Notes under the pieces: model-generated | Databases searched by the model: none | What the model was told of the DNA's origin: nothing | What the model saw: only the letters and a program-made list of their open reading frames with translations | Shown: piece by piece, positions 13,925-53,640 of the stretch | How positions within the stretch are numbered: the first letter of the stretch is position 1 | How the letters are laid out: each line of letters begins with the position of its first letter | NCBI GenBank assembly: GCA_009869945.1 | Contig: WIXG01000155.1 | Location: 62,001-126,000 of the forward strand | Direction: 5' to 3' | Origin: Mesaphorura yosii | Taxonomy: Eukaryota; Arthropoda; Collembola; Poduromorpha; Tullbergiidae | DNA: 64,000 bases | Program-made: the position numbers and the translations under genes

Positions 13925-16900
13925 TTAATCTTTCAGCTTCCGTTCGCCCTCCATCGCCACCAATTTCTCCCACGACAGCTTCCGCACTTCGTCCGTTGTC
14001 AAGCTGACATTAAAATACGATTCCAGCACCTGCTTTGCCTCCACAGCCATCAGTGAATCGAGTCCGTGGTCGATGAGGCAGAGTTTCCGGTTCGACGGAG
14101 GCCCCGTCAGTCCAATTATGCGACAGAGCATCAGGATAATGCCCGAAGCATCTGCAGCGAGTGCTGAGCCGGAGCCGTCGGATTTCGAACCAGCAGCCGT
14201 AGATTTCGGCTTGGCAAGCACCCAAGACGTGACCACAGCTGAGGTCGAGGCGCTCGATCCAGTTCGGAGCAGGGCGTCCAGCACCGAAAGGCAGGACGAC
14301 AGCCGCTGTGGAGTCAGCCCATGCAAATTCGTATCGTTCCCTCCCATGTGGTCGTGCACTATTCCGACGTCTCCGATCGCGCCCCACTGCACGGCAAGCC
14401 CCGGCAGCCCATCTCGCCTCCTTCCCTCGCAGGTTCGTTCCATTCCCGCATTCGCCCACCCGTAATTCGTTTGCCCAAACACTCCGCGACCTGCGGTGAA
14501 GCTAGAGAAGACGACAAAGTGCTCCATTTCGGGAGTCGGGCACAGTTGGCGTGTTGCCCTGTCCAGATGCGTTGTCGTATCCAGTTTGGGCTGCAGCACG
14601 GCTCTGAAATAGTCCTCAGTCTGGTTCTTGAACTGCTTGTCGCGTAGCACCATCGCTGAATTGAAGATGCCTCCGATGGGCCCTTTAGCTTGGGCGATTG
14701 CTTCTCGCAAGAAGCCCTCAGCTCCGGCGGTGGTAGCAAGATCGACCTGTGCCACTTTCACCCAGACGCCAGCACGTGTCCAGCAGCCAATTAGCCAGGC
14801 TTGATATCCGTTCTTGACGCCGGAGCCGGGCCGAGACGCCAGTACGAGCTTCTTGCATCCGCGTTGCTCAACCATCCACCTCGCCAGTTCAAACCCGAAA
14901 CCACCCAGGCCGCCAATGACGACGTACACTTTACTAGGGTCAAAATAAGTGCGACCAACTGCCTTAATTGTGACAGGCTCCATGGCCCGGTCGCCATCAT
15001 TTTCGTCTCGCATCTGAATCAGAACCTTGCCCACATGTTTTCCACTCGCCATGAATCTGAACGCAGACTCAATTTCCTCCTTCGCATAAATCGTTGATGG
15101 CAACGGCTTAACAATACCTGAGTCGATTCCTTCCTGCACGAGCTCCCGAATCCTCTCCCTCTCCCTCGCTCCATTGAAAAGTGAATCAAGTAGGATTCCA
15201 TGCACGCTGATGTTTCGCAGGAAGATTTCCATGCCAAGAGCCCGGTTTTGGGAAAGGTCGTACTTTCCAATCTCCAGAAACTTGCCTCCGCCTGCGAGAC
15301 ATCGCAGTGACGCGTCCAGTTTCTCTTCGGTCAGTGAATTCAAGACGAGGTCTACTCCACGGCCGTATGTTCGCTCCATCACAACGCGTTCGAAAGCCAG
15401 ATCGCGGGAAGATGCAATATTGGCCGGATCAAGCTGAGGAAAGCGTGACAGTAAAAACTGGCGCTTGGTGTCCGAGCCGACGGTTGTGAATACAGTGCAT
15501 TTCATTCTCAAAGCCACCGCAATCGCTGCCTGCCCCACGCCACCGGAACCGGAGTGAATTAGCACCGAATCTCCGGCGCGCATGCCGCCACGCATGATCA
15601 ACGCATAGTAAGCCGTGGAGTAGGCGACGGGCACTGTTGCCGCTTCCTGCAGGCTCCAGTCATCCGGCACGCTCCATGTAAACACGGGGTCAGCGACTAC
15701 TTGTGTGGCCAGCCCTCGAGACTCCAGCATTCCCATGACACGCCTACACCGCTGATCCTTGTTGTTCGTGCTGTCCCAGCCAGAAAATTCGAGCCCAAGC
15801 AGACAGTCGTTGTCTCCTTCTCCAAAGCCGGGCACTGCGTCGTTCCGGAGTTTTCCAGTCGCCAGCATGACGTCCCTAAAGTTTAGTGCGGCGAACGCGA
15901 CTTGAGACTGGCGGGCCGCGGCCAACGCCGGCGACTCGAAGAATTTCAGCGTGGAAAGGTCGCCTTTGGTCTCGTAATTCACGTACGCCGATTCCGTTTC
16001 GATCAACGCACTGCGGATGGAGTCGGCAAGCGGGAAATGACGGTAGGATCCAAGCTGCTGCTGCTGCTCTGTGCTTGCATCGACATCGCCTTCGACTTCG
16101 AACAAATTCATGACCAAATCAGCTTGAAACACGTGCGTGTACATCGTCTCAGGTGAATTAATGTCCAGGGCGGGCAGCGGTCGGGGAGACGCGATGCAAC
16201 GTGCAAGCCGTCCAGCCGGCTCCTGCCGCAAGCAATTCATGAATCCGACGATGCCAGAGTACGGCTGGGCTGAGGCGACTATGTAAACTCGACGGTGGCG
16301 GTGCTCTTCTTCCGGGGCTCCTTCGGCCTCGCGCAACGCGGTCTGCAGTTTCTGGACCCAGCCAAGGTTTTCGTTTCGTACGTGCACGATGGTCGGTGGA
16401 ATTTCCGAGTCGAATTTCTGTACACCGTTGAATAAATGTAAAAACAGTACATTAAAAGTGTTTTTGCTCGAAGTTACATAAGAATGACCGTGTGCTTGCC
16501 TTTCCATACAGCAAAAAATCATGACCGTCGATAGTTCGCTTCTCCGCGACTCGAACGTAGCCTGGCACCGTTGAAATCGCGACCGGAGCCTGGTCAGTGT
16601 GTAGCAGGATAAATCTTGGACCTTTATCAATAAAATCGCCAACCCGACCGACCCCGGCGCTGGCCAAATCTGCGATGAAGTTCGTAACAAATAAATTCGG
16701 GGCTTCGTGATTCCAATATGGGTCCTTCGCCTTCGCTGCTGTTTCAAATTTCAGCTGAATTCCTTGGCCATGTTCCTTAATCCATGCTTCCGTGCCTGCG
16801 TCTGTGTCAGGCGTCTGCGTTGAATGCAGACACAGGCTGATTTCGGCCTCCCGAAGCGGCTGGCACCGCACCCACTTCAAAATTGAAGGTGCCAGTGCGT

Positions 16901-19900
16901 TTTGCAGTCGGTTCACATTCTCTTGGACATGGATTCGATTCCCAGAGCAGTTTTCCAGTATGAGGTCAGTAAAGAATTTGATGGCCAGATCAATGTTCAG
17001 GTTCAGACTCAGGTCAGTGCGCTCCTGGTCAACGTACGCGTATGGCACGAATCGGAGCTCTTCGAGCACAGGCTTTGTCTTGTCCAGACGCTGTGGGAGT
17101 ATGCACATTTTCAATTTGTGAATCTGCAGCCCGTGACTGGCAATCAGGCCCGATTTCGGATCGAAGACAATATCAGCTATGTTTTCTGTGCGGGAAATCA
17201 AGACATTAACTTGAAATTTTAGCGCGTTCAAAGGGAAGGGCAAGTGCTTCAGGCTTCGAACCTTTTAAGTGAGCCAGAAATGCACGAGGGTCAATCACAA
17301 CCTTTTGAATCCCCGTCGGCACTTTTATGCACATGTTCTCGTCGCTGAAGATGTCTAGCTGAAGGGCAGTGTCCAGAAATGCCGTCCAGTTCCGGTTCCA
17401 AACGATTTTGCTCGTATTACCTTAAAATTTCATGCATTATTGCCTTCCCGAAAGTATAAAATCTCATTACGTCACGTAAGTAAAGTTTAAAAATCATACT
17501 CCCGAAGTTAATTGAATGAATTCCTTTGAAAATCCCGTCGTATTCAAAACTCGCCAGCCTCGTGAGTTTGTAAACGTCTTCTGAACTCAGGCAAATGTCA
17601 GCACGAACTTCTTCAGACTCAGGAGTCTCAGAACTTAGAAGTGGTGACCCTGCCCCCAAATCCATTTCAAGGACGTCTTCAGGGTTCAGCGGCCGAATTT
17701 CTCCTCTCACCAGCACCAGCCCTTCCGGCGTCGTAAACTGAAATACTCCACCGTTTCTGCTGGCGATGGCGATCTCGAATGAAGCCGTGCCCACGCCGGC
17801 ATCCTGACGAAAGATGATCGGATTCTCGAAGCAAACATCGCGCAATTCGACCGCCGTGTTTTCTTGCTGCTGCCCTCGCATGCTTGCAAGCTTTCCCCAC
17901 GCGAGCTCCAAGTAGCCCGCCGCTGGAAAAAGAATCCGCCCGTCGATGCGGTGCCCCTTCACGTACGCGTACTCTTCCTTGTTCAAATCTACGTCGATGC
18001 GGGTCTCAGAGCTTGACGCGCAAGCGGCGAACCCGTAGTCCATCAGCTCGAACGTTTGGCTGTGGTCCCATCTGATGAGCGGGGCGATCATCCGAGTGCC
18101 GATGGGGACCGGGATCGAGGACGCGGGCACCTCCCTCTGAATTGCGTTCAAGTCCGGATTGTAGCCCAGCTGGAAAAGGTTGCCCACACATTTGAGGAAT
18201 TGTCTGCGGCAATTTCCATTGCCACGCCGAATCAGCCCGAGAACGGGGCCTGCGGTGCATGAATTTGGTTCGGGTGCCGGCTTTGATTTACGGAGGATCG
18301 AGACGAACAGCGAGTGTGAGGAAATTTCAAGGACCGTGGCGTTGGCAGGAATCTGACGCGTCGCGCCGTAGAACTGAACGGGATCCCGAATGTTGCCGAG
18401 CAGGTACTCAACTGATACCGTCCCGAATTCAGGCGCGTGCTCCTTTCCTTCTGGGATACAAGTGCTTATCCACGTCGGTGATCGCTTGCGTGCACGCATC
18501 GGTGTGGGCTCGCAGCTGGTCTTCGCCAGCTCCTTTCGCACTGCCGCTTCGTACGCGGGAAGAATCGGGTTCAAATATGGCGAATGGTACGAGACTCCTC
18601 CTGTGTCGATCATACGGGCGAAAATTCCTTCTTTCTTCAGTTCCTCCACGAATTTCGTCATTGTCTCGACGGGACCTGAGATGGTCACACTCATCTCGTC
18701 GTTGTGGCAGGCGGCATGGATGCCCGCTGGGCACCGCGCCCGAGCCTCGTCCCAAGTCATTCCGACGGCCGCCATCGACCCACCCGAGCAGGTGAGGACG
18801 CATACGTCCTTGTGGTGAAGGATGCAAAGCAGCTGCTCACGCGTCAGGCACTTGTCGGCGTATCCGCAGCTCAGTTCGCCTGCGCTGTGGCCGATCATAC
18901 CTGCGGGCCGGATTCCAAGCGCCTCCACCGTGTCAATCAGTCCGATCTGCATGGCACCGTACAGCACGCCCATGTTTTGGTTTATCGGCCCGTCATCGGG
19001 ACTGCGGCTCAGCTCCAGCACGTTCAGGCCAAATTGGTCCAGAATTTCGTTGCAGGCGTCGATTGAGGCGGAAAAAGTGGGGATATCCAGCAGGTCATCA
19101 AACATGCCTCGGTAAACGGTGCCCATTCCCGAGAAAATGTACCATAACGGCGCTTCTTGGTCGACGGGTACCTGTTGAACGCTCACGTCGGCCTGGCCAA
19201 GCGCAAACGCGTACCCTCGAAATCTGTGCCCTGGAACGGGAGTCTTTGCGATTTCATTCAACAAGGATTCGAAGCAAGGATCACCGCCATGCTCGGAAGA
19301 TTGAACCTTAAACCGCAAGTGATATAAAAACTTAGTAGCAAGACTTCATTCCCATTCCACGTACACGTGAGTAATGCTAATTTACCTTTTCCAGGGCAAA
19401 TCGAACGCTTTCCTCCGTCACTCCAGAGAACAACACCAAATTACCAGAGCCGGACTCGGAGTTGAGCATTCCATTTTGCTCAGGCTCAACGCATTTCTGG
19501 TGTGGGCGAGGAGCTCCTCTACTGCACTCGAGCACAACATGCACGTTGGAGCCTCCGAACCCGAACGAATTCAGAGCAATCAATCCACGGTCGTATCTGT
19601 CTTGCTGCTCAATGGGTGTATTTTTGCTGACAACCTTCAGCCTTCCGTCAAGCAATGCGGGAATTCCGGGATTCGGTCTCTGGAAATGTAAGTTCGCCGG
19701 AATTATTCCATGCTGAAGCGACAGAACCACCTTCGCAATGGAGCAGAGCCCCGACGCAGCTTCGCTGTGTCCCATGTTGCTCTTTACGGAACCGACGAGA
19801 ATCGGAGGACGGTCTTTGCCTCTGCCACTGCCAGGCAACAGAATGGATGATATCGCGTTTAGTTCTGCTGGGTCGCCTACTGCGGTTCCCGTTCCATGCC

Positions 19901-20892
19901 CTTCAATATAAAATATTTTGTTGACGTCAAAATCCGAATCGGTGTACAATTGGCGCATAAGCGTCATTTGATCTTCCTCCGAAGGAGACGAAATCCCATT
20001 CACGGTGAATCCATCCGAGTTGGTTGCCGACGACAGCAGTGTCGCATAAACCCTTCGTGCGACCGACCACTTTTGGATGAAGATTGCAACGATCGCTTCG
20101 CCTCGCACGTACCCGTTAGCTCCCGCATCGTAAGACTTGCACTTGCCGTCAGGACAAAGCGCTCCTGACTTTTGAATCTGGAGAGCGAGACCCGGATGAA
20201 AGTTGACGTTCACTCCGCCGATGATCGCCGCCTCGCACTCGCCTGCTCGGATCGCCTGCAACGCATTGTGCAGTGCGAGCATGGAACTGGAGCAAAGCGT
20301 GTCCACAGTGTAGCTTGGGCCCTTGAAATCGAACGCGTACGAAATTCTGTTTGCGGCCATGCCCCCAAAACTCCCGGTCGTATCATATGCTGATGTTTTG
20401 TTACTCGATTTCAGTGACGCGTAGTGAGTTTGAGTTTGCGTGGCTCCGACAAATACCCCGACCCGCTTCCCTCGAAGTGTGACGGGATTCACACCAGCGT
20501 CCATTATCGACTCCCACGTCACTTCGTGTAGCGTCCGGAATTGTGGGTCCATCCGCTCCGCTTGTTTTGGATGCACACCAAAAAAGATCGCGTCGAATTT
20601 CGTGAGGTCTGCCTTCAACGTGCCTTTTCGGGTCGGGACTCCATCTGAAATGGAAACATACACAAAAGCCGCACATTTCGGAAAGATTAAGCCTTGACTG
20701 CCTGGGCTGTTTCGAATGTCAAGCGATCTTACCGACGTGGAGCCTCCGCCCCGATTCTTCAGTGACCATATCCACGCCCTGAACCAAATTGGTCCAGAAT
20801 TCTTCCAGGTCGTCCGACTCCGGGAACCGACCCGAAATCCCAGAAATGACGACGTGATCGTCGTCGTCGTCTCGGCCAGTATTCAGATGCAT
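13925..20892 (-). CDS. Animal fatty acid synthase-like megasynthase lacking thioesterase (possible FAS-like polyketide synthase)
   Basis: Six minus-strand exons keep frame exactly: 20892-20733, 20644-19386, 19306-17500, 17420-17262, 17209-16500 and 16417-13925, giving 2195 residues. Domain order is KS, AT, DH, a non-catalytic methyltransferase-like spacer, ER, KR, ACP. KS has its active Cys171 in DTLCSSS and the EGHGTGT histidine. AT has Ser614 in GHSAGE. DH has His924 in HRIDGR, with a downstream [11 protein letters not shown] segment. ER has SGSGGVGQ near 1655. KR has GGLGGFG near 1867. ACP has its phosphopantetheine Ser2153 in LDSL. The layout and many blocks follow cytosolic animal FAS, which builds acyl chains from malonyl-CoA with NADPH. 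Vertebrate FAS is about 2500 residues because it ends with a thioesterase. Here TAA follows 42 residues after the ACP serine, so the chain must be released by another enzyme or route. The exon 5 donor is GC (AAG|GCAAGC) and the exon 4 donor is GTTCGA. A specialised lipid or polyketide product is possible; ordinary FAS with a separate thioesterase is the alternative. Confidence 0.9.
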
Positions 20893-21612: not shown

Positions 21613-22066
21613 ATGGCAACCAAGTTCGGACCAGCGCTCCGTGAACTCCGAATTCACCTTTGCCAGAAGTCCGCAACGTCAAAAGGAGTCAGGTAATAAT
21701 GTCGATCGAAGTCTTCCACTAGTTCAAATTGTTAAATAACGATGAAGTAATGAGGTACAAATAATAATCAGTAACCTCGTTTTCTAGGGAGTGGATCGAG
21801 CAGAGCTACGTCCCCCTGAAGAAGGCTAACCCCAACTTCCCGATTCTGATCCGCGAGTGTTCTGGAACAACACCTAAGGTTTTTGCGCGTTATGGTAAGT
21901 AGATTTCATTCAGGTTGTTGAAAATCTCGGAGATCGCACTAATTTTCTGCTGTCCCGTAACTGAATGATGCATTGTTTAGATCGAGGACGCGAGAGCAGT
22001 GTTCTACTGGCTGATAAGAGCGCGGCGGAGGTGTCAAGAACCATCGAGTCACTTGCCAAGTCGTGA
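21613..22066 (+). CDS. NDUFA2: NADH dehydrogenase 1 alpha subcomplex subunit 2
   Basis: Three exons, 21613-21692, 21788-21894 and 21981-22066, join in frame to a 90-residue protein. It starts [18 protein letters not shown] and contains [10 protein letters not shown], a pattern typical of NDUFA2 (CI-B8). The family is an accessory subunit of mitochondrial complex I with a thioredoxin-like fold. The two family cysteines are visible, in HLCQ and RECSG. Human NDUFA2 is about 99 residues, so the length fits. Introns are 95 and 86 bp, and AATAAA follows at 22201. It is a conserved housekeeping gene, probably sharing its upstream region with the FAS-like gene. Confidence 0.95.
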
Positions 22067-22503
22067 AACACCAACAGTCGACAAGTCAAATGGTTCAGAT
22101 CATCAACAAACGATTAAGTAGTCGCAGTAATCTAGAACATGTACAAGAAACGAAGAAACCAGTCAATTACTCTGTAAGACTTCGCTTTATTCAGTAGCTG
22201 AATAAATCAAAAGCCGTAATCCAACGATGATTCGAGATTCATTCCATACACGCATATGGGTATGACAACGGGTGTGTAAACCAAATAAATTACGTACGCT
22301 GACTAGGTGGCAAATCAGATCAACAAATGGACTGAACTGGAAATGACTAAACGAACTTGAACTGACACCCGGTCTCACGAGTCCTCAGCAATTTGTAATT
22401 TCATTTTATGATCAGCTCCTGCTCGCGAATTCTTGAATCTAACTTTTCATATTAATCACATAGAAATCTCCATTTAGAGGAGGAGCAGTATTTCATACTC
22501 AAA
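22067..22503. other. Intergenic gap with NDUFA2 poly(A) signal
   Basis: Holds AATAAA at 22201-22206 for NDUFA2 and, presumably, the promoter of the following gene. No coding exon recognised. Confidence 0.45.
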
Positions 22504-25247
22504 ATGGTTCTAGTCAAACGGGCCGCCGTCGCCAAGAAAAAGAAGCCTAAGCCCTTGGCCAAGATTAAAGCTGGAGGGATCAAGAAGAAGAAACGTCCCA
22601 AGAAGGCACCCGCCACGAAGAAAGCTGCGAAGGCAGGAGGTAAGAAAGACAGAGTGAAGAAGGTCGCAGTAATTATCACCAAGAAAAAGAAGCCTAAACC
22701 CGTGACAGCCGACGCTGGAAAGAAGAATGCGCCCAAAACGAAGAAAGTGGCAGAGGTAGCATCCAAGAAGGCAAAGTCTCCAGAAGCCAAGGCCAAGAAG
22801 GACGTGAAGCCGAAGTCACCGGCGGGCAAGAAAGACGTGAAGGCCAAGTCACTGGAAGCCAAGAAGGCGAAATCACGAGCGGCCACGAATAAGTCTACAG
22901 ATGTTAGGGTCAAGAAGGATGTGAAGCCGAAGTCGAAGTCACCAGCAGCAGCAGCGAAGAAGGACAACCCACCGGAAGCCAAGAAGGATATGAGGGCAAA
23001 GTCACTAGCAGCGAAGAAAGCAGCCACGAGAGCGAAGTTACCAGCTGCCAAGAAAGAAACCAAGAAGGCGAAGTCACCGGCTTTTAAGAAAGAAACCAAG
23101 AAGCCGAAGTCGCCAACTGCTAATAAAGCCAAATCACCAGCAGCTAGGAAAGCCAAGAAGGACAAGACACCAGAATCTAAGAAAGTCAAATCACCAGCAG
23201 CCAAGGGAGTAAAGAAGGCCAAATCACCAGCAGCTAGGAAAGCCAGGAAGGACAAGACACCAGAACCTAAGAAAGTCAAATCACCAGCAGCCAAGGAGGC
23301 TGAGTCGCCAACAACCAGCGAGGGTGAGGAGGCGACGTCGCCAGCAGCAAAAAAGAGGAAAAAGAAGAATGGAAAGAGCAAAAGTCATGACACCAGCGGC
23401 ACCAGTGGAAAGTCATCAAAGGTTTCATCTAAGAGCAGGAGCAAATCGAGTGAAAGCCGAGGCACCAGTCGAACCAGCGGAAAGTCATCAAAGGGTTCAT
23501 CCAAGAGCAGAAGTAAATCGAGCAAAAGCGGAGTAAGTTCACTTGAACAACCTGCCTGAAGCGTCTGTGCTTATTTTTGCCAGCCAACGCATGCCTCTTG
23601 TTAATGAGTGCGCTTTTGTGTTCAGGGTCACTCCGGCTCCAGGAAGAAGAAGGGCAAAGGCCGAAAGGGACGGTCACGATCCAAAAAGCGCAAAGGGAAG
23701 AAGGGTAGGAGCAAGAAGAGGACTACTAGAAGCAAAAAACACAGGGGCAAGAAAAGTAGAAGCCGAAAGCGCAAGAAGAAGAAGCGACGTTTGGAAGGTA
23801 GGTCAACGGTCGTCAACGTCAAGCCAAGCCAAGATTTCTTCGGCTCAACCTGAGTTTCTGTAATCCCACTTAATTTTAATTGCGTGCAGAGGGAGAACTT
23901 GAGGAGTCGTTGCTTCTCGAGGCCAACGAACTGAATCTACGCCATTACTCTGTAAACGGCGAGTTATACGACTTTCGCCTGCTGTCCACTCTGCCCAAGA
24001 TTTGTGGAGACTGGATGATCCTCGTAATCGATGATCCTCTCAGAGTGAAGGAGATACTTGACGAAGAGCTGCTTGCGGATCAACAGCTGTTTGGCACGAA
24101 TAGGGAACTGGTCGAGTCAGAGGAAGAGCAGGAGATTGGTGCGAAGGAGGGAGACTCCCAGAAAATGGTAACAGTAAAGTAAGTGCATATCTGAGCTGAT
24201 ATTGCTGATTTAAATTATTTACGTGTTTCTCAATATTGCTATTGCCACCCATTTGATTTCAGTGAGCATGAGCAGATTTTTAAAGACAAGGTGACGAAGA
24301 AGCAAGACGAGATCGAACTACGAACCAGATGGGAGAAGAAAGGCGACAAGAAACTCCTTTCCATCACTGTAGTCCTCCCCGAGCACGCAATTTGGTTTGA
24401 GAAACCCATCCCAGTTCGCTGGAACTCCGAACTCGGCATTTGGTCGACGGACGCCTTCTTCGACGTGAAATTCCTTCCACTGGATATCTCAGTTCGTTTC
24501 TCCACGGATGTTTCCGGCGTGTTCGGGTTCGCAGCTGACCGATGGATCAACTTGCCGTACCGGGGCTGGAAACTGGAATCGGCAGAAAATGGGCTGGTCA
24601 AATTCACTCTTCAAGCCAAACTGATCACCGTGAAATTCACGGTGCGTGACGACCTTATTTGCGTCAATGCGTTGACGGAGGGACCGGCGCACAGCCCGAA
24701 AGTGGAAGAGAAACTGTTGAACGTTTACATGAAGCCCCGAGATCTGATCAAGACTCTTCGCGAATGTGGAATCAACGTTTTCCCAGAACACGACTCCCAC
24801 ACGTACATGGTGGAAGGGGTCCTCACAAAGCAAGCAGACATCGAAGATCGCCTGTATCAGTGCATAGCGATCGTGTATCCAGCCTACCACTTAAGCTGGA
24901 GTAAGTGGAACAGTGAGGCCGGGCGAGATAAGATTGTGCTGCAGGCGCAGTCGAAGACAGGCACAGGCGAATCTGGCAATGTGCTGAACACGTCGAGCGG
25001 CTCCACATTTGTCAGCTGCACCGAAGAGAGTAAAGCATTCTCCGACGCTCCGCGAAGTGGAACTCAACTTAGGGCTGATCTGCTCAATCTTGTAAAAGCG
25101 TTTGGCGGTCCCGACGTGAACGAGCTGATTCCAGTCACTGAGACCGACAACGACGCTGGTACGTCAACGTCTAAGCTATTGTCTACACACGCGGAGGCAG
25201 TGCGGCTACTGCTCCATTCCGTACGACCGCTCTCATATTCAGCGTAA
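22504..25247 (+). CDS. Chimeric protein: histone H1/protamine-like basic N-terminus joined to DNAI7/CASC1-like axonemal domain
   Basis: Exons 22504-23532, 23626-23797, 23890-24178 and 24263-25247 join in frame to 824 residues. Exon 1 (343 residues) is almost pure Lys/Ala/Ser/Pro with repeated KSPAAKKA-like units, as in linker-histone tails, and ends with Ser/Arg/Lys repeats. Exon 2 (about 57 residues) is extremely basic and protamine-like (runs such as KKRKGKKGRSKKR). Exons 3 and 4 change character completely. They are acidic to neutral and globular, with blocks such as GIWSTDAFFDV, FSTDVSG, DRWINLPYRGWKLE and LITVKFTVRDD, which I recognise as the C-terminal part of CASC1/DNAI7, a factor of ciliary dynein arms. 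The usual CASC1 N-terminal region was not seen. AATAAA lies at 25297-25302. Function as one protein is unknown; basic tails of this kind bind DNA or microtubules. All three junctions have canonical GT-AG sites and matching phase. Confidence 0.75.
23131..23303 (+). repeat. Tandem 90-bp repeat in the lysine-rich exon
   Basis: A 90-bp unit starting AAATCACCAGCAGCTAGGAA at 23131 recurs with few differences at 23221, encoding near-identical KSPAARKA...KTPE.KKVKSPAAK units. Shorter degenerate copies of the same theme fill the exon, so it seems to have grown by unequal duplication. Confidence 0.85.
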
Positions 25248-25903
25248 ATAATTAAATGATACTCAACTTATAATGTAGCCAGCCAATCAATCCAGAAATA
25301 AACTGAGCGTGCAAAAATCCGATGAATTGAATCAGCTGACAAAGAAAGTGAGAGTGAATGAATCGTGGGCAGGAAGAAAAAACTGCACCTGTGAATGTGA
25401 ATCTGTAAGCTGCAAACATGCACGTGATTTGAAATCTCTTCCTGTTAGGGAGTTGCTGTTTGTCTAGTCCGGTCGGCGGCTGCGTGATAACTTCATCATT
25501 TGCTGGTGGCATGTGACGAAAGATTTCATCATGTGTTTTATCATCATTCTGCCGTGCTCGTGTTCGGCGGTTCACGCACCTTAATCTGCCGGTCATACTT
25601 ATCGTGGAGAGCACGAGCTAAAGATCATCCTGCCATCCTTTTTAAATAGAAAAGGCAATATTCGAGACAGTAACGCTAAGTTTAGTTAGTAAATCAAATA
25701 ATGTGTAACTGGAATGAGTGCTGTAACCTAGCTAATCATAATTTGTCCACTGATTTCTCAAACTTGGCCATGTGCACTTAATGCGTAAGGATACAGTGTA
25801 GTTCGTCAAGTCGTCATGTTTGATAAACGCTGACTTCTATCTAAGGGACTGCCGATCTTCTACCGGTGAATCTTGGAGACAGTTCAGTTCAATTACATCC
25901 GGT
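25248..25903. other. Intergenic gap before NDH-2
   Basis: AATAAA at 25297 probably ends the upstream gene. The frame of the NDH-2 gene stays open upstream of 25904 back to about 25820 but has no earlier ATG, so any targeting peptide would need an undetected upstream exon. Nothing else seen. Confidence 0.45.
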
Positions 25904-27393
25904 ATGAATACAGCATTACATCGAATTGTGGTTGTTGGCGGTGGTGCAGGTGGGCTCGAACTAGTCACCCGGCTCGGGAGAAGCCTTGGCAAAAACCGGC
26001 TGGGCAGGCCCGTTCTCATAGACAACTCACCGACCCACATTTGGAAACCGCTCCTGCACGAAGTGGCCACCGGGGCCTTGAACACAGGCGAGGATGAACT
26101 GAATTATTTCGCTCATGGCCACCAGAATTTCTTTGACTTTGAATTCGGGAAAATGATTGGTCTCGATCGAAGCCAGAGAACCGTAAAGCTCGACTCGATT
26201 TCCGGCCCAGACGGGGAAGTTGCAGTTCAGCCCCGAACTGTGGAGTATGATACTCTCGTCTTGGCACTTGGAGCAGTTACAAACCACTTCAATACGCCTG
26301 GAGTCGATAAGAACTGTTTCTTTTTGAATACACCTCAAGAAGCTGAAAGACTGCGAATCAAGATTTTACTGCAGGCACTCTCCGTTGTGACTGGAAATAC
26401 AAGAGTTCCTAAATTGAGGATAGGAATCGTAGGTGGCGGCGCCACGGGTAAGTTAAAAAAGTTGATAAGTTGAGTTGCCATTAGAACAGAAAATAAGTTC
26501 ACTAATCAGTACTCCTTTCACAGGTGTAGAACTCGCTGCTGAAATATTTCATACCATCTGTGAACTGAGACAACTAGGAAGTCGCATAATGCAGCATCAA
26601 CTCGAAATCACCTTAATGGAGGGAGCATCAACAGTTTTAGCAAGTGCACCCGCTGCTCTCGGGAAGTACGCAACGGAGGAGCTGACAAAGCGTGGAATTC
26701 GCCTCATGACTAATTGCTGGATCAAATCTGTCGAGCCAGACGGATTCGTTTTTAAGGACGGCTCCAAGCTGGAGGCCGATATCAAAATTTGGACGGCGGG
26801 CATCAAAGCACCTGATTTCCTTGGCACTCTGGGGTTATCAGTGAATAAGATCAATCAAATCCAGACCGACCCATTTCTGAGGAGTTTGGACGACGAAAAT
26901 ATTTATGCAATCGGAGATTGCGCAGCAGTGCCTGCAGACAGTAAAGGCAGTGGGAAGTGCCTGGCGGCAACAGCACAAGTCGCCCATCAGGAAGCCGAGT
27001 GGCTTGAGAAGTGGCTGGCTGGCATGTTTGAGAAGAGCCACATGGTGGCGGGGAATGCTGGTCGTCCTCCGTTCGCGTTCAAGCCTCAAGGGATGCTGGT
27101 GTCGATGGGAGAAGGAAATGCAGCCGCAAACTTGGCGGTAAGTTGTACGAATTCTTGCTTCAATCAATTATTCCAATTGTAGTACAGCCTTTAACCGTCT
27201 TCATTTGCAAATTTCGCAGGCGCTGATCGGTCCCAAACGTGATTACTACTTCCAAGGCCGAAGTGCCAAGCTGCTGTACGCATCACTGTACAGAATGCAC
27301 CAGGCGGTGCTTTACGGCTGGCCGAGAGCTATTTTCCTATGGATTGGTGATAAACTGAGAAAAGTGGCTTTACCGCAGTTAAAACTACATTAA
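25904..27393 (+). CDS. Type II NADH:quinone oxidoreductase (NDH-2), bacterial type
   Basis: Exons 25904-26447, 26524-27137 and 27220-27393 give 443 residues. There are two Rossmann nucleotide-binding motifs. VVVGGGAGGLE near residue 12 should bind FAD, and IGIVGGGATGVE near residue 178 should bind NADH. Between them are the family pattern HIWKPLLHEVATG and VLALGA; later come the second FAD motif AIGDCA and a C-terminal amphipathic region with Lys/Arg. The enzyme passes electrons from NADH to quinone without pumping protons, bypassing complex I. Its overall pattern is closest to proteobacterial ndh as I remember it, rather than plant or fungal NDE/NDI enzymes with EF-hands, which suggests transfer from bacteria followed by intron gain (introns of 76 and 82 bp). 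The ATG at 25904 is the first in frame and leaves almost no room for a mitochondrial presequence; an upstream exon or internal signal is possible. AATAAA at 27578. Confidence 0.92.
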
Positions 27394-27763
27394 CTGGGCT
27401 GGGTCGGGCTAAAGTCTAGCATTTACCCGAAGATCTAATTCACCGACAAGTATTAATTAACGAAGAACATGGAGCTTTAAGCATTTAGTCAATACTTTGA
27501 ATGATATTTATTACCTATCCAATCAAAATCCTGCTAATCATTGCATTGCAATATTTATTCTTGTCAAAGTGCCGTTAAATAAATCGTAAATGAATCCTGA
27601 CAAAAATGTTAATTAAACTGGTCGATCATCCGCATCGATTCTCTTTTCTATTTCTGGTCCAACTTTAATTGACCGATCGCATTTGCCAAATTGCCAATTC
27701 GCTTCGAGGCTGGGTGCCATAAACTAAATCATTTTTTAGCTCATTCATAAAGATTAGTTTACA
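27394..27763. other. Spacer between NDH-2 and its decayed copy
   Basis: AT-rich; contains AATAAA at 27578-27583 for the intact gene. No remnant of the FAD-binding N-terminus of the second copy could be recognised here. Confidence 0.4.
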
Positions 27764-28491
27764 GGTGTCCGGTATCCACTGCTGAATGAAGCTGCTACAG
27801 GTATGATTCGTCTGTGCTCGAACGAAACTCCTGACCTCTGACCACTTTGACAACTTATTCACAGGTGCATTCAACATTTGCGAAGACGAAATCAATTACT
27901 TTGCGCTTGCCTTCAAGTTCAACTATGAATTCAAGCAGGGAGCGATGAAAGGGCTCGACTTGAAGAACAAAGCCATTCGCATCGCCGCCATCACGAACGA
28001 GGCTGGGAGGATCGTCAGCCCAGAAAGAGATTTCCGGTGCGACACGCTGGTCATGGCCTGCGGGGCGATCACAAACAGCTCCGGAACGCCAGGCGCTGAG
28101 AACTGCTTCCAGCCCAACAATTACTACCAGGCTGAAACGCTGCGGCAACGAAGGCAAATTCTGCCTCACCTCCGCTCAAGTCACCCATGAGAAAGTTGAC
28201 TGGCTCCAGAAGAAGATTATGACCATGTACATCCCTGGAAAGAAGGGTACAGCGCCCTTCCTCTACAACGCTAAGGGCATAATTGTCTCACTGGACAACA
28301 CCAAAGCCGTCGGGAGTGTCACGGCCGCAATGCAGAAGCATCTGGACATGGAAGGTCGCATGGCCAAAATCCTGTACTCACTTCTTTACCGGAAGCATCA
28401 GGCATCAGTCTTTAGGTGGGGCCGAACTCTCGTCGTTTGGACGGCCGACAAGCTTTGCCAAGTCGCTCTCCCACAAATTAAACTACATTAG
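27764..28491 (+). pseudogene. Truncated tandem copy of NDH-2
   Basis: A fragment near 27767-27802 reads RYPLLNEAATG, matching KPLLHEVATG of the intact gene next door. It is followed by a GTATGA donor and an acceptor at about 27864. The next frame (27866-28187) reads GAFNICEDEINYFA, then DTLVMACGAITN. It should continue through the NADH-binding domain but instead jumps, with a frame change near 28140-28150, to NEGKFCLTSAQVTHEKVDWLQ, the C-terminal part. It then runs to the same C-terminal ending (RKHQASVF to LPQIKLH, stop at 28491). The first FAD motif and about 190 central residues including the NADH site are missing, so it cannot be an active NDH-2. AATAAA at 28644 suggests it may still be transcribed. 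It is diverged from, but clearly paralogous to, the upstream gene. Confidence 0.85.
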
Positions 28492-37515: not shown

Positions 37516-38810
37516 TTAGGAGGCTAAACAAGCGAAAACAACAATAAAACCATAGAAAATGATCCAACTAGCATGGATTTTCGGGGCCAGACTCGATCCG
37601 TCCTCAGCAATCGCGACAGCGATCTTGGAATCCGCTGTTCCATAATACAGGAACCATTTGCTCTTGAAGTTCACTAGACCTTCCACGAACACGACATTGT
37701 CCACCTGACCATCCAATTCGTAGTCTTTCTCAGGCGTAATGAAATACTGCTCAGTGCGATTCAGCAGAATCCAAGGCGACGTAGGGTCCAGTAGCACCTG
37801 GCCAGCTGAGTATGTCCCTTTCGGAATATTTGGGTCACCACCACCAATTGGGCTAAGATTTCGAGAGTTGTAGATCAGAAGAATGCCCGCCGGTGTCATC
37901 ATGGCTTGCGGGCCCGGTTCGACGATGTCACTGTCGAATTTTCCTTCTCGCGGTCCGAAAATTGTCGTTATCTCGCTTCCTGGTCGCCCGATTTGATCGT
38001 TGGTCAGCGGAGTCCACGTGCGGAGGTCGGTTGACCAAGCTAGGAAGATGTCTGACTCGCCCCAATACATCCAATATTTGCCGTCAATTTTCCTCGCGAT
38101 GAACTTCCCTTCGTCCGTATGTTCTGTTACAATCGCTCCAGCCTTTGACCAAAGATCCACGTAACCCGCTGCCTTGAAAACGGGGCCGTACTTTGTCCAC
38201 TGGCGGAGGTCAGGGCTTGACGCGACGCAGAGCCGGGCCGTCGTGCCATCGTACGCCGTGTACGTCATGAAGTACTCACCGCCTGACGTTTCCACTATTC
38301 GCGGGTCTTCACACCCGCCTTCCCATTCGTATTCGAACACTTCGTCGTTGTCCGGGTAGAAAATGGGTAGTGGCTCCCGAGTAAAGTGGAGCCCATCGGG
38401 GCTCGTTGCGAGTCCGATCCGGGACGTGCCGTTAAACTTGCCGTCGAAGTCTTCAGCACGGTACAGAAGGTGCACCACTCCATTTCGGACAAGCGCCGTC
38501 GGGTTAAACACGTCTTTTTCCTCCCAAAACACTGTGGCCTGTCGAATGGGGCAAAAGAAACCCGTTTCAGCCTCGGCGCCCATGATTGGATTGACCGAGT
38601 CTTGCTTGATGAACGGCCCGAGTTGCCAATCTGAAATTAGGATCACATCATACGTTTAACAAATTGGGAACCAAACAGTTCCTCAATTTTAAAGGACAGG
38701 TCTTCAATCAATTCACCTTCATTTGTCACCGCCACGCCGTTTCTTGCAGCGAAAATTGTCAACCCAAACCAAAGGGACGAAATTAGTTTGGAATTGGTCG
38801 CAAAATTCAT
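37516..38810 (-). CDS. Secreted GH130-like glycosidase/phosphorylase with C-terminal membrane-anchor signal
   Basis: Two exons, 38810-38717 and 38630-37516, give 402 residues. Exon 1 encodes a signal peptide (MNFATNSKLISSLWFGLTIF). The rest is a five-bladed propeller-type enzyme of the GH130 family as I recognise it: FNPTALVRNG, TSRIGLATS, GGCEDPRIVE, TYTAYDG, KYWMYWGES, EPGPQAMMT, ILLIYNSRN, VEGLVNF and YYGTADSKIAVA. GH130 enzymes cleave or phosphorolyse beta-mannosides; the glutamates and aspartates of the EDPR and VEPGP blocks are present. The C-terminus ends in a hydrophobic stretch (IIFYGFIVVFACLA) at the very end, which suggests a GPI-anchor signal or membrane tail. Close bacterial-style motifs, a nearly intronless body and scarcity in animals suggest horizontal transfer; one 86-bp intron splits off the eukaryotic signal peptide. 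Substrate cannot be assigned. Confidence 0.85.
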
Positions 38811-41733: not shown

Positions 41734-43146
41734 TCATGTTCTTTTGTTGACACTTTTGAGTATGTTTAGCTGCTCGAATGATATGTTTGTGAAATCCGCG
41801 AGGAGGTAGCCGGTCCAATACGTAATGTTGAACAGACCAAAAATGAGCGGAAAAACTACACGTGAAGCGCGATCGAGGCGCTTTGCCTTCATGAACGCAG
41901 CTTGCTTTGCCTCCAAGTCGTCTTCGAGATGCACGTTGTACTTTTCGTTCTTTCGGCGCCACTGAAAGTGTGCAATGTAATTGACGTAGGCGAACTGGAG
42001 AATAGCACCAAAAATCATCGCCTGGCACGTGGCCGTCCACACATCGAGCGCCTTGATGTAGGACGCAGGCGGGGCGGAGAGGTTGATGCCGTACGTTTGG
42101 GTGACGATCGTCAAAATGGTCGTGACGCCCAAAGAAACCTGAAAGTAATCAAAATCGCTTGAATGAGCCGAAAGTGGATAATTTAGTAATGTACGGCTTT
42201 ATTGACTTCTTACCCGGGCTTCGACGGCCGTCGGCTCCAGAAAAAAGCTGACCCACGACACAATGACCAACATTGAGCACGGGATATAAATCTGAATCAT
42301 GTAGAACCCAAACTCCCGAGCAAATGTGAGATGCAGGAGAAGGCACCCAAAAGTGCCCGTCGTCGTGATGCTCTCGCACAGGACCGTCTCGTGTTTCTTG
42401 AGGCTGAACCGAGCCATGTTGAACTCCCTCGCCATCTGTACGGGATCTTTCCTCCGCCAGCGTAGGACAATGTCGTCTAGCGTCCAACCGTAGCTCGCCA
42501 TGCGCATGGGGCAGAGTTGCTCGTCGAGCGGGTACGATTTGAGGTTCATCGGGCACGAGAGTAGGAGCGAAATGCGGAAACTCTGGGCGACTCGCCCGTC
42601 CGGGTAAATCCTCGTGAAAACGTTCGGGACCATGAGTTTGTGGAGCGTGCCCTGCTTCTCGTTGCTGAAGAAGAGGTCCGGAGCCCAAATGCTCTCGTAC
42701 GCCTCGACCATCTGCAGGAAGTTGATATTCCTGTACCATTGCGAATACTTTAGGCGCGGGTCGACCCATTCTTGCCGAAAGGAGAGCTGCACTTTGTACT
42801 CCATCCGCACGTCGTCAATGTTCTCGATGCTCCGCACGAAGAGGTTCACCTCGACTTCGACGGGGCCCGACCCGTTCAGGCCGATGGGGCGGATGTTCCT
42901 GTCGTAATTGTGCAGGATTTGCTGGAAGATGCGGGATTTGGTCTCATTTGCGTTGATGTCGCGAAAGTGCTCGTCAGAAGGCGACGGCCCTCCGTCTCCG
43001 TCGCTGTTGTGGGCCACCTCCGTTTCTGTTGCGTTCAGGTTCAAGTCAGGATAGTCTTCGGGGCTTGGCCGGAAAGCGGAGGCGGCAGAGGTCGCGGCCA
43101 CCACCAGAATGAAGAGGAATCCCAACGGCGCCCGTGCCATTTCCAT
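41734..43146 (-). CDS. GluCl-like Cys-loop ligand-gated ion channel subunit (copy 1)
   Basis: Exons 43146-42214 and 42138-41734 give 445 residues. There is a signal peptide (MEMARAPLGFLFILVVAATS), then an extracellular domain with INANETKSRIFQQIL, NLFVRSIENIDDVRMEYKVQ, DLFFSNEKQG and the Cys-loop CPMNLKSYPLDEQLC. A second cysteine pair (LCESITTTGTFGC) is typical of glutamate- and glycine-type anion channels. Four membrane segments follow: M1 (FYMIQIYIPCSMLVIVSWVSF), M2 (VSLGVTTILTIVTQTYG), M3, a short intracellular loop and M4. Overall closest to invertebrate glutamate-gated chloride channels. The selectivity filter before M2 reads VEAR where GluCl, GlyR and GABA receptors have P-A-R, a Pro-to-Glu change at -2'. 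The ligand is unknown. The single intron lies between VEAR and VSLG, the same position as in copy 2. Confidence 0.92.
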
Positions 43147-44009
43147 TTTTTTCTGCACTGGAGCACTGCTGGCCTAAGTCTCGAACTCGAACTGGAGTCA
43201 ACAATGTTTTACGACTGACTTGGAATGGAATTTGGGGCGTTTGCGTTTGTATTTGCATTTGTCGCCCTTCAAATCTCAAATGCTAGGAGCTTCGCTTCGC
43301 TTGCATCGCATGGCAAAAGGTCGTGACATTAACCTGGACGTCAATTAATTAGGGCACGGCGCAGCGAGGCGAAAAGCGCAATTCGCAGTTCGCAGTTTTC
43401 GCCCGAATTTCATTGCAATTAAAGCCCGCAGTCGCGAAAATGTCGCACGTCAGTCAACAACAACGTATCAAGGCAAGTTTGACATTTTGCATACGAATGT
43501 CGTTAATTCATGTCAAACTTCAAATTACTTTCAACGTACGTTCGCTGGCTGAACTGAACACGCACGCACTGGAACTTGAATTATTCCGGGCGAGTATGCA
43601 TTATGCAAATTCTTCGGGTCTCGTTAGGCTCGTGAGCATTTGCGAGGCACACCCAAGAACAAGGACCAAACACGACGACATGACACGCAAACCTCGCATT
43701 ACGCCAAATGAGCTACGAACAGTAAGACAGCAGAAATATGGGTTTTCGGGTTAATTAAGCAATACCAGTACTAATGTGCTTACAATGTCATAGGCCATAA
43801 ACCAATAGCCTGTGCTCGTTGAGCCTAGAATTCAGCAGAGTTTCGATTCGCGATGTTTTGCAGCAAATTCTCTTGAAATTAGACATTCGCCGTCACCGGC
43901 CGACTCTGCTCGGTTTAATTACACTTAATTTTGGTGCGGTCGCTGTGAAATCGAATTCGAGTTTCAGGGCCTTTTCTAGCTTGCTATTCGCCTGAAGGCC
44001 GGTCAACAA
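43147..44009. promoter_or_regulatory. Divergent promoter region of the two channel genes
   Basis: About 860 bp separate the start codons of head-to-head paralogues, so both promoters lie here and may be shared. An open frame at 43413-43754 shows no domain. No specific element is clear. Confidence 0.45.
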
Positions 44010-45455
44010 ATGTGGAAGCATACCCGGCCTGGTGTTTGGGCCTGTCTGGCCATTTTGTCGGTGGTGAGCCTTGCCCCTGGCGGGATCGAAGGGCTCAAGC
44101 TGAAGGAGCCGCGTGATATCGAAGGCCAAGAAGACGGCTTTGGTGAAAGTGAACCTGAAGACGCCGACTACGGAATAGGCGGGCAGGAGACGGCCTCCAC
44201 CAGACAAGGCTCACATTTCCAAGACATCAACGCTAACGAGACCAAATCCCTCATTTTCAATAAAATCCTGGAAAAGTACGACAAGAACATCCGGCCGTCT
44301 GGCATCAACGGTTCCGGCCCCGTCGAGATCTCCATCAACCTCTTTGTGCGGAGCATCGAGAACATTGACGACGTGCGGATGGAGTACAAAGTGATGCTCA
44401 GCTTCAGGCAAGAATGGATCGACCCTCGGCTCAGATACTCAAAACTGGCCGACAACATCAATTTCTTGCAGCTTATCGTCGCGGCCAAAATCTGGTCCCC
44501 TGACCTCTTCTTCAGCAACGAGAAGCAGGGCGAGCTGCACAAACTCATGGTGCCCAATCTCTTCACGAGGATTTACCCCGACGGGAGGGTCACTCAGAGC
44601 TACCGAATTTCACTCCTGCTCTCGTGCCCCATGAACCTCAAATCGTACCCGCTCGACGAGCAACTCTGCCCGCTCCGCATCGCCAGCTACGGATGGACGA
44701 CGTCGGACATTCTGCTCAGGTGGAGGAACCGCGACCCGGTGCAGATGGCTCGAGAGTTTCACATGGCACGGTTCAGGCTCAAATCTCACCACACTATTTT
44801 GTGCGAGAGCGCGACGACGGCGGGAGTGTTTGGATGCCTTCAGCTGCAGCTGACTTTCGCTCGAGAGTTTGGATTCTACCTGATTCAGATTTATGTCCCT
44901 TGTTGCATGCTGGTCATTGTGTCATGGGTCAGTTTCTGGTTGGAGCCGAGTGCTGTTGAGGCACGGGTAAGTTTTAACCTATCAAATCAATTACGCGATA
45001 CTTAGAATTAATTCATATAATTCCACGTGGTTGGCTGGCTTGGCTTTCAGGTTTCTTTGGGGGTCACGACGATCCTCACGATCGTCACCCAAACGTACGG
45101 AATCAATCAAAGCGTGCCTCCAGCGTCTTACATTAAGGCGCTGGACGTGTGGACAGCAACGTGCCAGGCGATGGTGTTTGCCGCGATTCTACAGTTCTCG
45201 TACGTCAACTACACGGCCCACTTCAAGTGGAAGGCGCAGGCTCAGGGTCTGTACCCGAACGTGCTCGTCAACCCGGAGGACAACCTCGCCCTCAAGAAAC
45301 TCGCATACGTGAAGGCGAAACGGGTCGACAAACTCTCCCGAATCATCTTCCCTGTCGTCTTCTTATTTTTTAATATCACGTACTGGGCAGGTTATCTGCT
45401 GGCGGACTTTACGAACATTTCCTTCGAGAGAATCAACATTCTGAAGTTTGACTGA
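44010..45455 (+). CDS. GluCl-like Cys-loop ligand-gated ion channel subunit (copy 2)
   Basis: Exons 44010-44966 and 45051-45455 give 453 residues. It starts MWKHTRPGVWACLAILSVVS (signal peptide), then an acidic linker, then the same receptor blocks as copy 1: INANETKSLIFNKILEKYDK, NLFVRSIENIDDVRMEYKV, DLFFSNEKQG, the Cys-loop CPMNLKSYPLDEQLC and the second pair LCESATTAGVFGC. M1 to M4 are intact and the M3-M4 loop is short. The pore entry again reads VEAR and not VPAR. Intron position and phase equal copy 1 (84 bp here, 75 bp there), so the pair arose by inverted duplication of one intron-bearing gene. They could form homo- or heteromeric pentamers in neurons or muscle. Poly(A) signal at about 45623. 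Confidence 0.92.
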
Positions 45456-51481: not shown

Positions 51482-53640
51482 ATGAGTGATGTTTCTAAGA
51501 CTGACGACGAGGACTTTGATGGAGAAGCCGGAGAGGCCGGTGAAGCTGGAACAGCAGCTGCGCGGAATCCAGTTGGGGTAAGAGCTGCAACTAAAGGGAT
51601 AGAACTGGGTACCAGTAACTTGACTTGACCCGCGTGCATTAATTTGGACTGTGCCTTTGATCTTGGCAGTTGTACGACGGCCAGCGCAACAATAAGAATG
51701 AACGGTTAGTGGAGTTCCGATTCGACGCTGCAGTTATCAATAAGTGCCAATTAATTGGTAGTTTGTGTCGCTAATTTAGGCATGGACGTGGCCGAGCTGA
51801 ACTTCCGAATGGAGATTTGTATTTGGGATGCTACTACCGTGGACAGCGTCATGGACTCGGCATTTACCGATACAAGTATGGAAATGGAGCTCGTTATGGT
51901 GGAGATTGGACATTTGGAGAGAAGAAGGGCTGGGGCTCAATGTACTACCCCGATGGAGCTCAGTACACTGGGAACTGGGACCGGAACCTGCGCCACGGCT
52001 GGGGTGTTTACGTTTATCCGAACGGAGATGAATACGAAGGATGGTGGTATTACGGCCGTCGAAATGGACGAGGAATCTATCGCACCAAAGCCAATGGCGA
52101 AAAGTTTGTGGGTGAATGGCGACTTGGGAAACGACACGGACCCGGAATGCTTATGCGAAAGGATCACCGATTTATTGGGCACTGGTTTAATGACGTGGTA
52201 AGTGTATGTTCTTTTAATTAGCACCGTGCTCTTTCGTTGTCTTACATTTGTGAATTTTAGCCGCGAGGACCTGGCGTGTACGTGTTCCCTGAACTTCAGT
52301 GCGAACAGCATGGTCGGTACACTCACATGAAAGTCGCGCCTGGTGGCGAAGATAAGTGGCGGCTGGCTGGTTACCAAGTACGCTCGATTCGTTCAACTCC
52401 ACCATTCCCACTGGATGATCCGCATGCCATTGAGACTCAACACAAAAATGTAATTGAGGTACGAAACCACTGATGACATTGAACGAGTGATGAATGCATA
52501 GGCTTTCATATCGCTAATTGGACACACGGTTTTCCAATTGCAGATGCAAGGTGAAGTCGACGGTGAGGGAAGACTGGAGGATTTGAAGCCAAGAACACTG
52601 TCACCGCCTATCTCAATTGAGACCCGCGTCTTCAATTACATGATGAACATTCTCGAACAGGACGCAGTTGCTGACGACGCCAAAATCTCCGTTGTCCCAA
52701 TGTGGCGTGCTATTCAGATTACTGGGTTGATAACACCAATCCCTGACGACTCAGTTCCACCACCGCCGCTGCCGCCGACCCCTCGACCTCCGACGGAGCC
52801 TGAGCCAGAGGAAAAAGTTGGTCAATATTCCCCTCTGAACCACTGTCTATAGGATTTTATCATTATGTTGACATTTGTTCCCACAGGAAGAGGAAGAAGA
52901 GCTTGAAGGCGAAGGAGAGGGGAAAGGAGAAGGCTACGTCGATCCAATTCTGGAGGCGAGGCGTCTCGCCCAAACTCACGCTCTCCAAGAAACTTACTAC
53001 GACCAAGGTGTTTGCCAACCAGACATGCTTCCAGTCAACCAACCGCCTGATGTTGCGCCGTACGCAAATATCTCCTCCATGAGCGTGAGGAACATGAATG
53101 AAATGAGAGAGAACGTTGAAGCGACGGGTGGACAACTCGAGCCCATCGACATTGAGGCGGCGATGCGAGAAAATCAGTAGGCCACTTATTTCATTGCATT
53201 GCTAGTAGTAATTATTATTGCATAAAGCTGCAGAAATTGAATCTTGTCCCGGTCTTCACAGAGCGCTGATGAATAGTCATGGTCTGGACGTTGAAGACCG
53301 ATGGAGAAATTGCTTGGGCGATGACGACCCAAATTGCCAGTTCCCCGAAGCTCCCGTCACACCGGGCGAACTAATCGAGCTGAAGGAACCCCAACACGAA
53401 GACCGAGCGACTGAACAACATCGCGGGTCACAGAGCCAAAGCCAAGGTCAAAGTCGTGCTGCGCCAGGAACTGGAACATCGGAGCTTCCTGAGACTTCTG
53501 CCATTGACGAAGAGGAATTAAACCTTGTAAGAGCTCCGTCCACCGTTCTTAATGGAAAAGTGACGCGGCTTTCTGTCTTTCAGATGTCCGAAAATGGCGA
53601 CGAAGGAGACGAAGAAGCGTACACTACTGACGACTGTTAA
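51482..53640 (+). CDS. RSPH1: Radial spoke head 1-like MORN-repeat protein
   Basis: Exons 51482-51577, 51670-51704, 51780-52197, 52261-52458, 52544-52816, 52887-53176, 53262-53526 and 53584-53640 give 543 residues in one frame. Residues about 33-210 hold six or so MORN repeats (LPNGDLYLGCYYRGQRHGLG, YPDGAQYTGNWDRNLRHGWG, YPNGDEYEGWWYYGRRNGRG and further units). The C-terminal half is acidic and Pro/Glu-rich. RSPH1 is a radial spoke head protein of 9+2 axonemes, needed for ciliary and sperm-tail beating. Human RSPH1 is about 309 residues, so this one has an extended acidic C-terminus. A TAG at 53178-53180 would end a 437-residue form. I prefer splicing over it, because CAGTAGGCC there is a usable donor and the next two exons keep phase. 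The exon 5 donor is GTTGGT, which is weak. AATAAA at 53729. Confidence 0.88.

Follow-up and report, generated by a model that had tools for sequence, protein, structure and literature searches.

Genes at the locus

The analysed stretch of DNA (64,000 nucleotides of contig WIXG01000155.1 from the collembolan Mesaphorura yosii, hereafter the window) carried genes that looked animal by eye. Its central feature was a four-exon gene (Table 1) whose predicted product joined a 400-residue basic tail, encoded by exons 1 and 2, to a 424-residue DNAI7-like part, encoded by exons 3 and 4. The end of an L51_S25_CI-B8 gene, NDUFA2-like by eye, lay directly upstream of it (21800-22066, +; E 3.8e-15). On the other side, at 25904-28491, two pyridine nucleotide-disulphide oxidoreductase genes stood in tandem; one of them, the first, matched Pfam Pyr_redox_2 in both exons tested, and the second was assigned by eye. 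By eye, this pair resembled type II NADH dehydrogenases, which are unusual in animals.

Several other genes were recognised in the window. An animal-type fatty acid synthase gene (13928-20882, -) was judged by eye from its frames, and two Cys-loop channel genes were found on opposite strands at 42205-45452, the first with a Neur_chan_LBD match (E 2.4e-45) and the second alike by eye. A MORN-repeat exon (51778-52215, +; E 2.2e-14) resembled by eye RSPH1, which is also an axonemal gene, and lay some 27 kb away from the DNAI7 paralog. Additionally, an open frame of 378 codons (37522-38655, -) matched Glyco_hydro_130 with an E-value of 5.2e-43. Among the best 80 of 101 prokaryote relatives of this GH130 frame, the leading ones were a KSB1 MAG (56% identity) and a Chitinophagales MAG (55%), making the frame a candidate for horizontal transfer or for contamination. 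Outside the window, telomere-like TTAGG repeats were present on small contigs (e.g., C1051:11606-11690). A 25-base TTAGG pattern gave 26 forward and 14 reverse matches in the genome, overlaps counted, and the reversed control gave none; TTAGG is the telomere unit typical of arthropods.

Table 1. Predicted parts of the chimeric gene and associated signals (positions within the window)
Feature	Position	Strand	Description
Exon 1	22504..23532	+	Residues 1-343; KSPxxK-type repeats of Lys/Ala/Ser/Pro, and a stretch rich in Ser/Lys/Arg; open frame with in-frame repeats; net charge +96
90-bp tandem duplication in exon 1	23128..23296	+	Tandem Repeats Finder; 1.9 copies, 97% matches, frame offset 0
Intron 1	23533..23625	+	Phase 0; 93 bases; GTAAGT..TTCAG; best-scoring of 32 in-frame pairs
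Exon 2	23626..23797	+	Lys/Arg cluster, net charge +34 over 57 residues
Intron 2	23798..23889	+	Phase 1; 92 bases; GT..AG; where the tail meets the DNAI7 half; best-scoring of 20 in-frame pairs
Exon 3	23890..24178	+	NELNLRHY motif at the start of the DNAI7-homologous region; acidic linker
Intron 3	24179..24262	+	Phase 2; 84 bases; GT..AG; not matched by any intron of the C178 model; best-scoring of 44 in-frame pairs
Exon 4	24263..25247	+	Casc1_C domain (protein residues 557-752) through stop codon; PF12366 E 1.2e-15; 8j07_k3 E 4.1e-30
AATAAA, likely polyadenylation signal	25297..25302	+	50 bases beyond the stop codon

Structure of the chimeric gene

When joined, the four exons formed 2475 bases that translated into 824 residues and one terminal stop, with no internal stop. 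The introns were evaluated by a simple home-made consensus score applied to the in-frame, stop-free GT..AG pairs around each junction, and all three predicted introns ranked first. Upstream, TAA codons at 23871 and 23877 closed the frame of exon 3, whose earliest ATG in frame (24015) was located downstream of the conserved NELNLRHY motif. In a scan of positions 21701-26000, AATAAA occurred at 22201, 22284, 23122 (within exon 1) and 25297, and none was found between the last two. The weaker variants ATTAAA (22564, 25251) and AGTAAA (23208, 23512, 24173, 25029, 25688) were also present in the scanned region.

Given the intron ranks, the closed frame of exon 3 with its late ATG and the placement of AATAAA, a single transcript was the simplest reading. 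An earlier, sequence-only reading had proposed an 824-residue frame across four exons with canonical splice sites, and this frame stood up to the analysis. The same reading took the tail and the domain for a fusion; judging by the frame, the intron scores and the position of the poly(A) signal, they most likely belong to one gene with the predicted splice junctions.

The C-terminal half is homologous to DNAI7

Residues 557-752 were recognised as the Pfam Casc1_C domain with 57.9 bits against a cut-off of 26.2 (E-value in Table 1). It was the sole Pfam family listed for the whole protein at E-values up to 10, a search in which the HMMER filters drop most weak matches. The C-terminal half on its own also gave a sub-threshold DUF6205 match (E 0.058), which was set aside. 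The Casc1_N domain was absent, as the Pfam profile search found no PF15927 match in the 824-residue protein.

Searching the PDB at E-values up to 10 returned seven sequences, four of which were DNAI7 or IC97/Casc1 chains. The IC97/Casc1 chains came from 8glv (E 4e-12), which we take to be a Chlamydomonas structure, and from 9e5c (E 0.0022). DNAI7 in 9fqr matched with an E-value of 5.2e-25, and this chain was taken as mammalian because it shared 205 of 253 residues with the human chain. The fourth match, human DNAI7 in 8j07 (8j07_k3), was aligned over DNAI7 residues 423-692; the structure is named as human in the accessible text of PMC10886578. On the strength of these profile and structure matches, the C-terminal region is a genuine C-terminal region of DNAI7/CASC1/IC97, as the sequence-only reading had suspected.

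Properties of the basic tail

The 400 residues of the tail included 127 Lys, 29 Arg, 26 Asp and Glu and no Cys, which corresponded to a net charge of +130 and a pI of 11.45; about 400 basic N-terminal residues had indeed been expected from the first inspection. Exon 2 was the most basic part, with Lys and Arg at 35 of its 57 positions (14 of them Arg), no cysteine and a pI of 12.0, presumably the ceiling of the pI program. Arginine clusters and a pI of 12 or more, as in protamines, did not characterise the tail as a whole, and exon 2 alone came nearer to them. Tandem Repeats Finder detected repeat units of 33, 36, 57 and 90 bp, so that the proposed 90-bp duplication was present as one of several.

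Two motifs were enriched in comparison to shuffled tails, K[ST]P with 11 occurrences (1.54 in shuffles) and [ST]PxxK with 8 (1.57 in shuffles), and none of 2000 shuffles reached either count. SPKK-type [ST]P[KR][KR] sites were not observed in the tail (0.76 in shuffles), nor were [ST]Px[KR] sites (1.9 in shuffles), and the number of KK pairs was at chance level, being reached by 414 of 2000 shuffles.

Relatives of the tail were searched with composition filters that could hide low-complexity sequences. With this limit, the tail matched no Pfam family at E-values up to 0.01 and no PDB chain at E-values up to 1, and in its own genome both matches at E-values up to 1 (90 candidates scored) were to the gene itself. 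The globular winged-helix domain of linker histones (PF00538) was likewise absent from the Pfam matches of the tail at E-values up to 0.01. The genome had four linker-histone matches above the profile cut-off and one below it. Against two of these five H1 proteins, the tail scored 1.7 and 2.1 SD above shuffled tails, with 23 and 8, respectively, of 300 shuffles scoring as high. Since these scores were near the shuffled level, an H1 origin of the tail was not supported, and calling it histone-like is mainly a statement on composition. The description of the tail as sperm-chromatin-like was thus not borne out.

A conventional DNAI7-like gene on another contig

The genome search covered 93 Mb in 1127 contigs. 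The sole Casc1_N match found was on contig C178 (E 1.2e-4; 27.3 bits, just below the cut-off of 28.2), and the same contig carried the only other genomic match of Casc1_C (E 1.1e-4; 27.2 bits, above the cut-off of 26.2). About 10 kb separated these two matches, which were on the same strand. In comparison with the genome, exon 4 of the chimeric gene matched its own locus and four stretches of C178. The model of the C-terminal part of the C178 gene was open over 389 residues and ended with SVRPLSFS, versus SVRPLSYSA in the chimera, and 152 of 373 aligned residues were identical between the two. A small exon placed in the linker of C178 by spliced alignment was considered doubtful, and another acceptor gave the open 389-residue model. 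The N-terminal pieces of C178, joined by hand, matched DNAI7 chains weakly (E 0.043 and 0.046, with an unrelated chain at 0.051). Judged by these matches, the C178 gene is a conventional DNAI7-like gene with both halves, its Casc1_N match falling below the cut-off. We also saw, by eye, Tc1/mariner transposase-like frames on the - strand of C178, at about 75.8-74.8 kb, in the interval that separates its Casc1_N and Casc1_C parts.

The two copies could be compared over 302 aligned codons, with 125 identical residues (about 41%). The nucleotide identity was 0.53, 0.67 and 0.37 at the first, second and third codon positions, respectively. When exon 4 was randomly mutated at 10, 20, 30, 40 and 50% of its positions, 18, 1, 0, 0 and 0 of 500 copies remained free of stop codons. 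The fair levels for one lineage were 20-30% because the total divergence was shared between two lineages. Both copies evolved mostly as coding sequence.

Origin of the chimera

In an unrooted tree of five sequences, the two Mesaphorura copies were separated from those of mammals and Chlamydomonas with a support of 0.98. Because the C-terminal regions of both copies grouped together, the tree indicates that, relative to vertebrates at least, the chimera arose from DNAI7 by a lineage-specific duplication. A lineage-specific derivative had already been suspected from the locus itself. Neither the conventional gene with both halves elsewhere in the genome nor the lack of its introns in the DNAI7 half of the chimera had been noticed at that point.

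Namely, the C178 model had seven introns in its C-terminal part (the first placed by hand, the other six by spliced alignment) that were missing from exons 3 and 4 of the chimera, and the one intron that the chimera had in its DNAI7 part (intron 3) was in a stretch with no C178 counterpart. Parental introns were thus absent from the copied part, as in a processed retrogene, and this pointed to a cDNA step, that is, a retrocopy or a conversion by cDNA. The acceptor of exon 3 was in phase 1, as was the acceptor that looked best for the homologous C178 exon, and the two were at approximately corresponding places. The C178 acceptor was selected visually from nine candidate AG sites, two of which were in phase 1, and for this reason we hold with moderate confidence that intron 2 may be common to the chimera and the C178 gene, i.e., that the border intron may be ancestral. 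If it was, then the tail would have been joined by exon shuffling through this intron. The chimera may have started as a retrocopy that recruited exons, or as a duplicate made at the DNA level that then lost introns mainly towards its 3' end. Alternatively, the seven introns may have been gained by the C178 gene.

Possible function and alternative explanations

H1 is known to stabilise sea urchin flagellar microtubules, which we did not use as evidence, and IC97 reportedly interacts with tubulin, going by the title of a 2009 paper. In the accessible parts of the sources cited here, DNAI7/IC97 is described as an intermediate chain of the inner-arm dynein f/I1 (PMC11656769) that binds the IC-LC (light-chain) tower of this dynein (PMC10266980, PMC10886578). 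In Chlamydomonas, IC97 is needed for the localisation of FAP120 and for normal motility and is dispensable for the assembly of dynein f/I1 (PMC11656769). The earlier statement that CASC1 acts in ciliary dynein assembly was inaccurate in this respect. In Drosophila, the homolog CG15373 is given as testis-only (PMC6367277), and cylicins provide an example of lysine-rich repeat proteins of sperm that can be cytoskeletal (PMC10684152). A 2024 review notes that IC97 still has no known functional role (PMC10886578).

The explanation that we favoured, with confidence about evenly balanced, is that one chimeric gene encodes an extra DNAI7 variant of the sperm flagellum, which would be expressed in sperm, take a place in the axoneme and grip microtubules. 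DNAI7 (IC97/CASC1, the third intermediate chain of dynein f/I1) would have been duplicated within the lineage, with only the C-terminal part kept, and the introns of this part would have been lost, probably via cDNA. The phase-1 intron would join the copy to the two exons encoding the polycationic tail, which would have grown by in-frame repeat duplication. The folded Casc1_C part would then hold, or compete for, a place in the base of dynein f/I1, while the tail would bind the acidic surface of axonemal microtubules with its net charge of +130. Gene structure, homology, duplication, the intron difference and charge were read from the sequence, and from these we infer the rest of the mechanism. 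Some considerations weigh against the axonemal reading. A strongly basic tail would also help a protein to enter the nucleus and to bind DNA or RNA, and a protein with Casc1_C only might fail to dock on the light-chain tower or on tubulin. The tail also had neither SPKK-type sites nor an excess of KK pairs. Moreover, there were two RFX X-box-like sites per gene in 1600 bases, none of them convincing.

The composition of the tail could also fit a sperm nuclear basic protein, whose tail would act on sperm DNA like that of a linker histone or protamine and whose DNAI7 part would be a passenger, be cut off or anchor the protein at the head-tail junction. Lys and Arg made up 156 of the 400 tail residues, with exon 2 as an extreme case, and insect sperm basic proteins can derive from cleaved precursors, as stated in the available portion of PMC12216123. 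However, the same text ties protamines to arginine clusters and a pI of 12 or more, whereas Lys prevailed over Arg in the tail and its pI was lower. Since, in addition, there was no linker-histone domain, the likeness to H1 was mostly compositional, the attached 424 residues were acidic (net charge -20) and their C178-aligned part was under constraint, we considered a nuclear role unlikely. It was also possible to imagine a sperm cytoskeletal protein similar to cylicins, with a tail that forms or binds the calyx, a dense fibre or the head-tail coupling and with Casc1_C recruited away from dynein. Cylicins are characterised in the accessible text of PMC10684152 as testis-specific, with lysine-rich repeats in units of up to 41 residues and an isoelectric point above 10, and the repeats (33-90 bp) and pI of the tail would agree with this. 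But the tail repeats were KSPxxK-type rather than KKD/KKE, and no Pfam family or PDB chain was matched by the tail within the thresholds given above, so that we found such a role distinctly improbable. Very little credence was given to two further readings. In one, a single protein would link sperm chromatin, or the base of the nucleus, to the axoneme, its tail binding DNA or nuclear material and its Casc1_C part flagellar dynein or microtubules; in the other, the chimera would be a precursor cut into chromatin and flagellar proteins.

Other alternatives concern the gene itself. One has a basic protein encoded by exons 1 and 2 and a DNAI7-like transcript of its own for exons 3 and 4. In its favour, exon 2 read 53 bases into intron 2 until a stop codon at 23851, so that an isoform ending there is possible. 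But exons 3 and 4 had no in-frame ATG ahead of the conserved motif in a frame closed upstream, just 92 bases separated exons 2 and 3 with a donor and acceptor that were the best of 20 pairs, and no AATAAA lay between those at 23122 and 25297, though the AGTAAA variant was present at 23512 and 24173. We therefore judged two separate genes to be highly improbable. A decaying, functionless retrocopy, open by chance, would account for the paucity of introns in the DNAI7 half and for the missing N-terminal half. It would not be expected to show conserved second positions with divergent third ones at about 41% amino-acid identity, no stops, and good consensus sites at all three introns, and we regarded it as scarcely credible.

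The gene seems to offer a clear example of chimerism at the level of exons, in which half of a conserved intermediate chain, a regulatory subunit of dynein, has been re-used together with a polycationic repeat tail, with a conventional copy persisting. If it is expressed in sperm, it would offer a testable handle on the rapid diversification of flagellar proteins as well as on the abilities of a DNAI7/IC97 C-terminal half that lacks its N-terminal partner.

Comparison with known systems

Jingwei-type chimeric retrogenes pair a copied segment that is poor in introns with upstream exons of other origin, and the chimera resembled them in both respects. The differences were that retroposition is what we infer here and that the border intron is possibly shared with the parent, and a plain retrocopy would not have kept it.

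With respect to the tail, the Lys/Ala/Ser/Pro-rich composition and the KSP motifs resembled the C-terminal tails of H1 and protamine-like sperm nuclear basic proteins. In contrast to these, the tail had no globular H1 domain, its alignment score was close to that of shuffled tails, and it was dominated by Lys rather than Arg. The long lysine-rich repeats and the pI above 10 were reminiscent of CYLC1 and CYLC2, which are sperm cytoskeletal proteins in mammals (PMC10684152). However, cylicins, here compared by description rather than by sequence, have KKD/KKE repeats, and the accessible part of that source mentions no DNAI7 domain in them. In the excerpts available from the open-access literature on DNAI7/CASC1/IC97 and on basic or lysine-rich sperm axoneme proteins, we found no DNAI7 fused to a basic tail. 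Among the closest known proteins was DNAI7/IC97/CASC1 (LAS1) itself: the chimera shares its Casc1_C region but is without the Casc1_N half and carries a 400-residue polycationic tail at its N-terminus.
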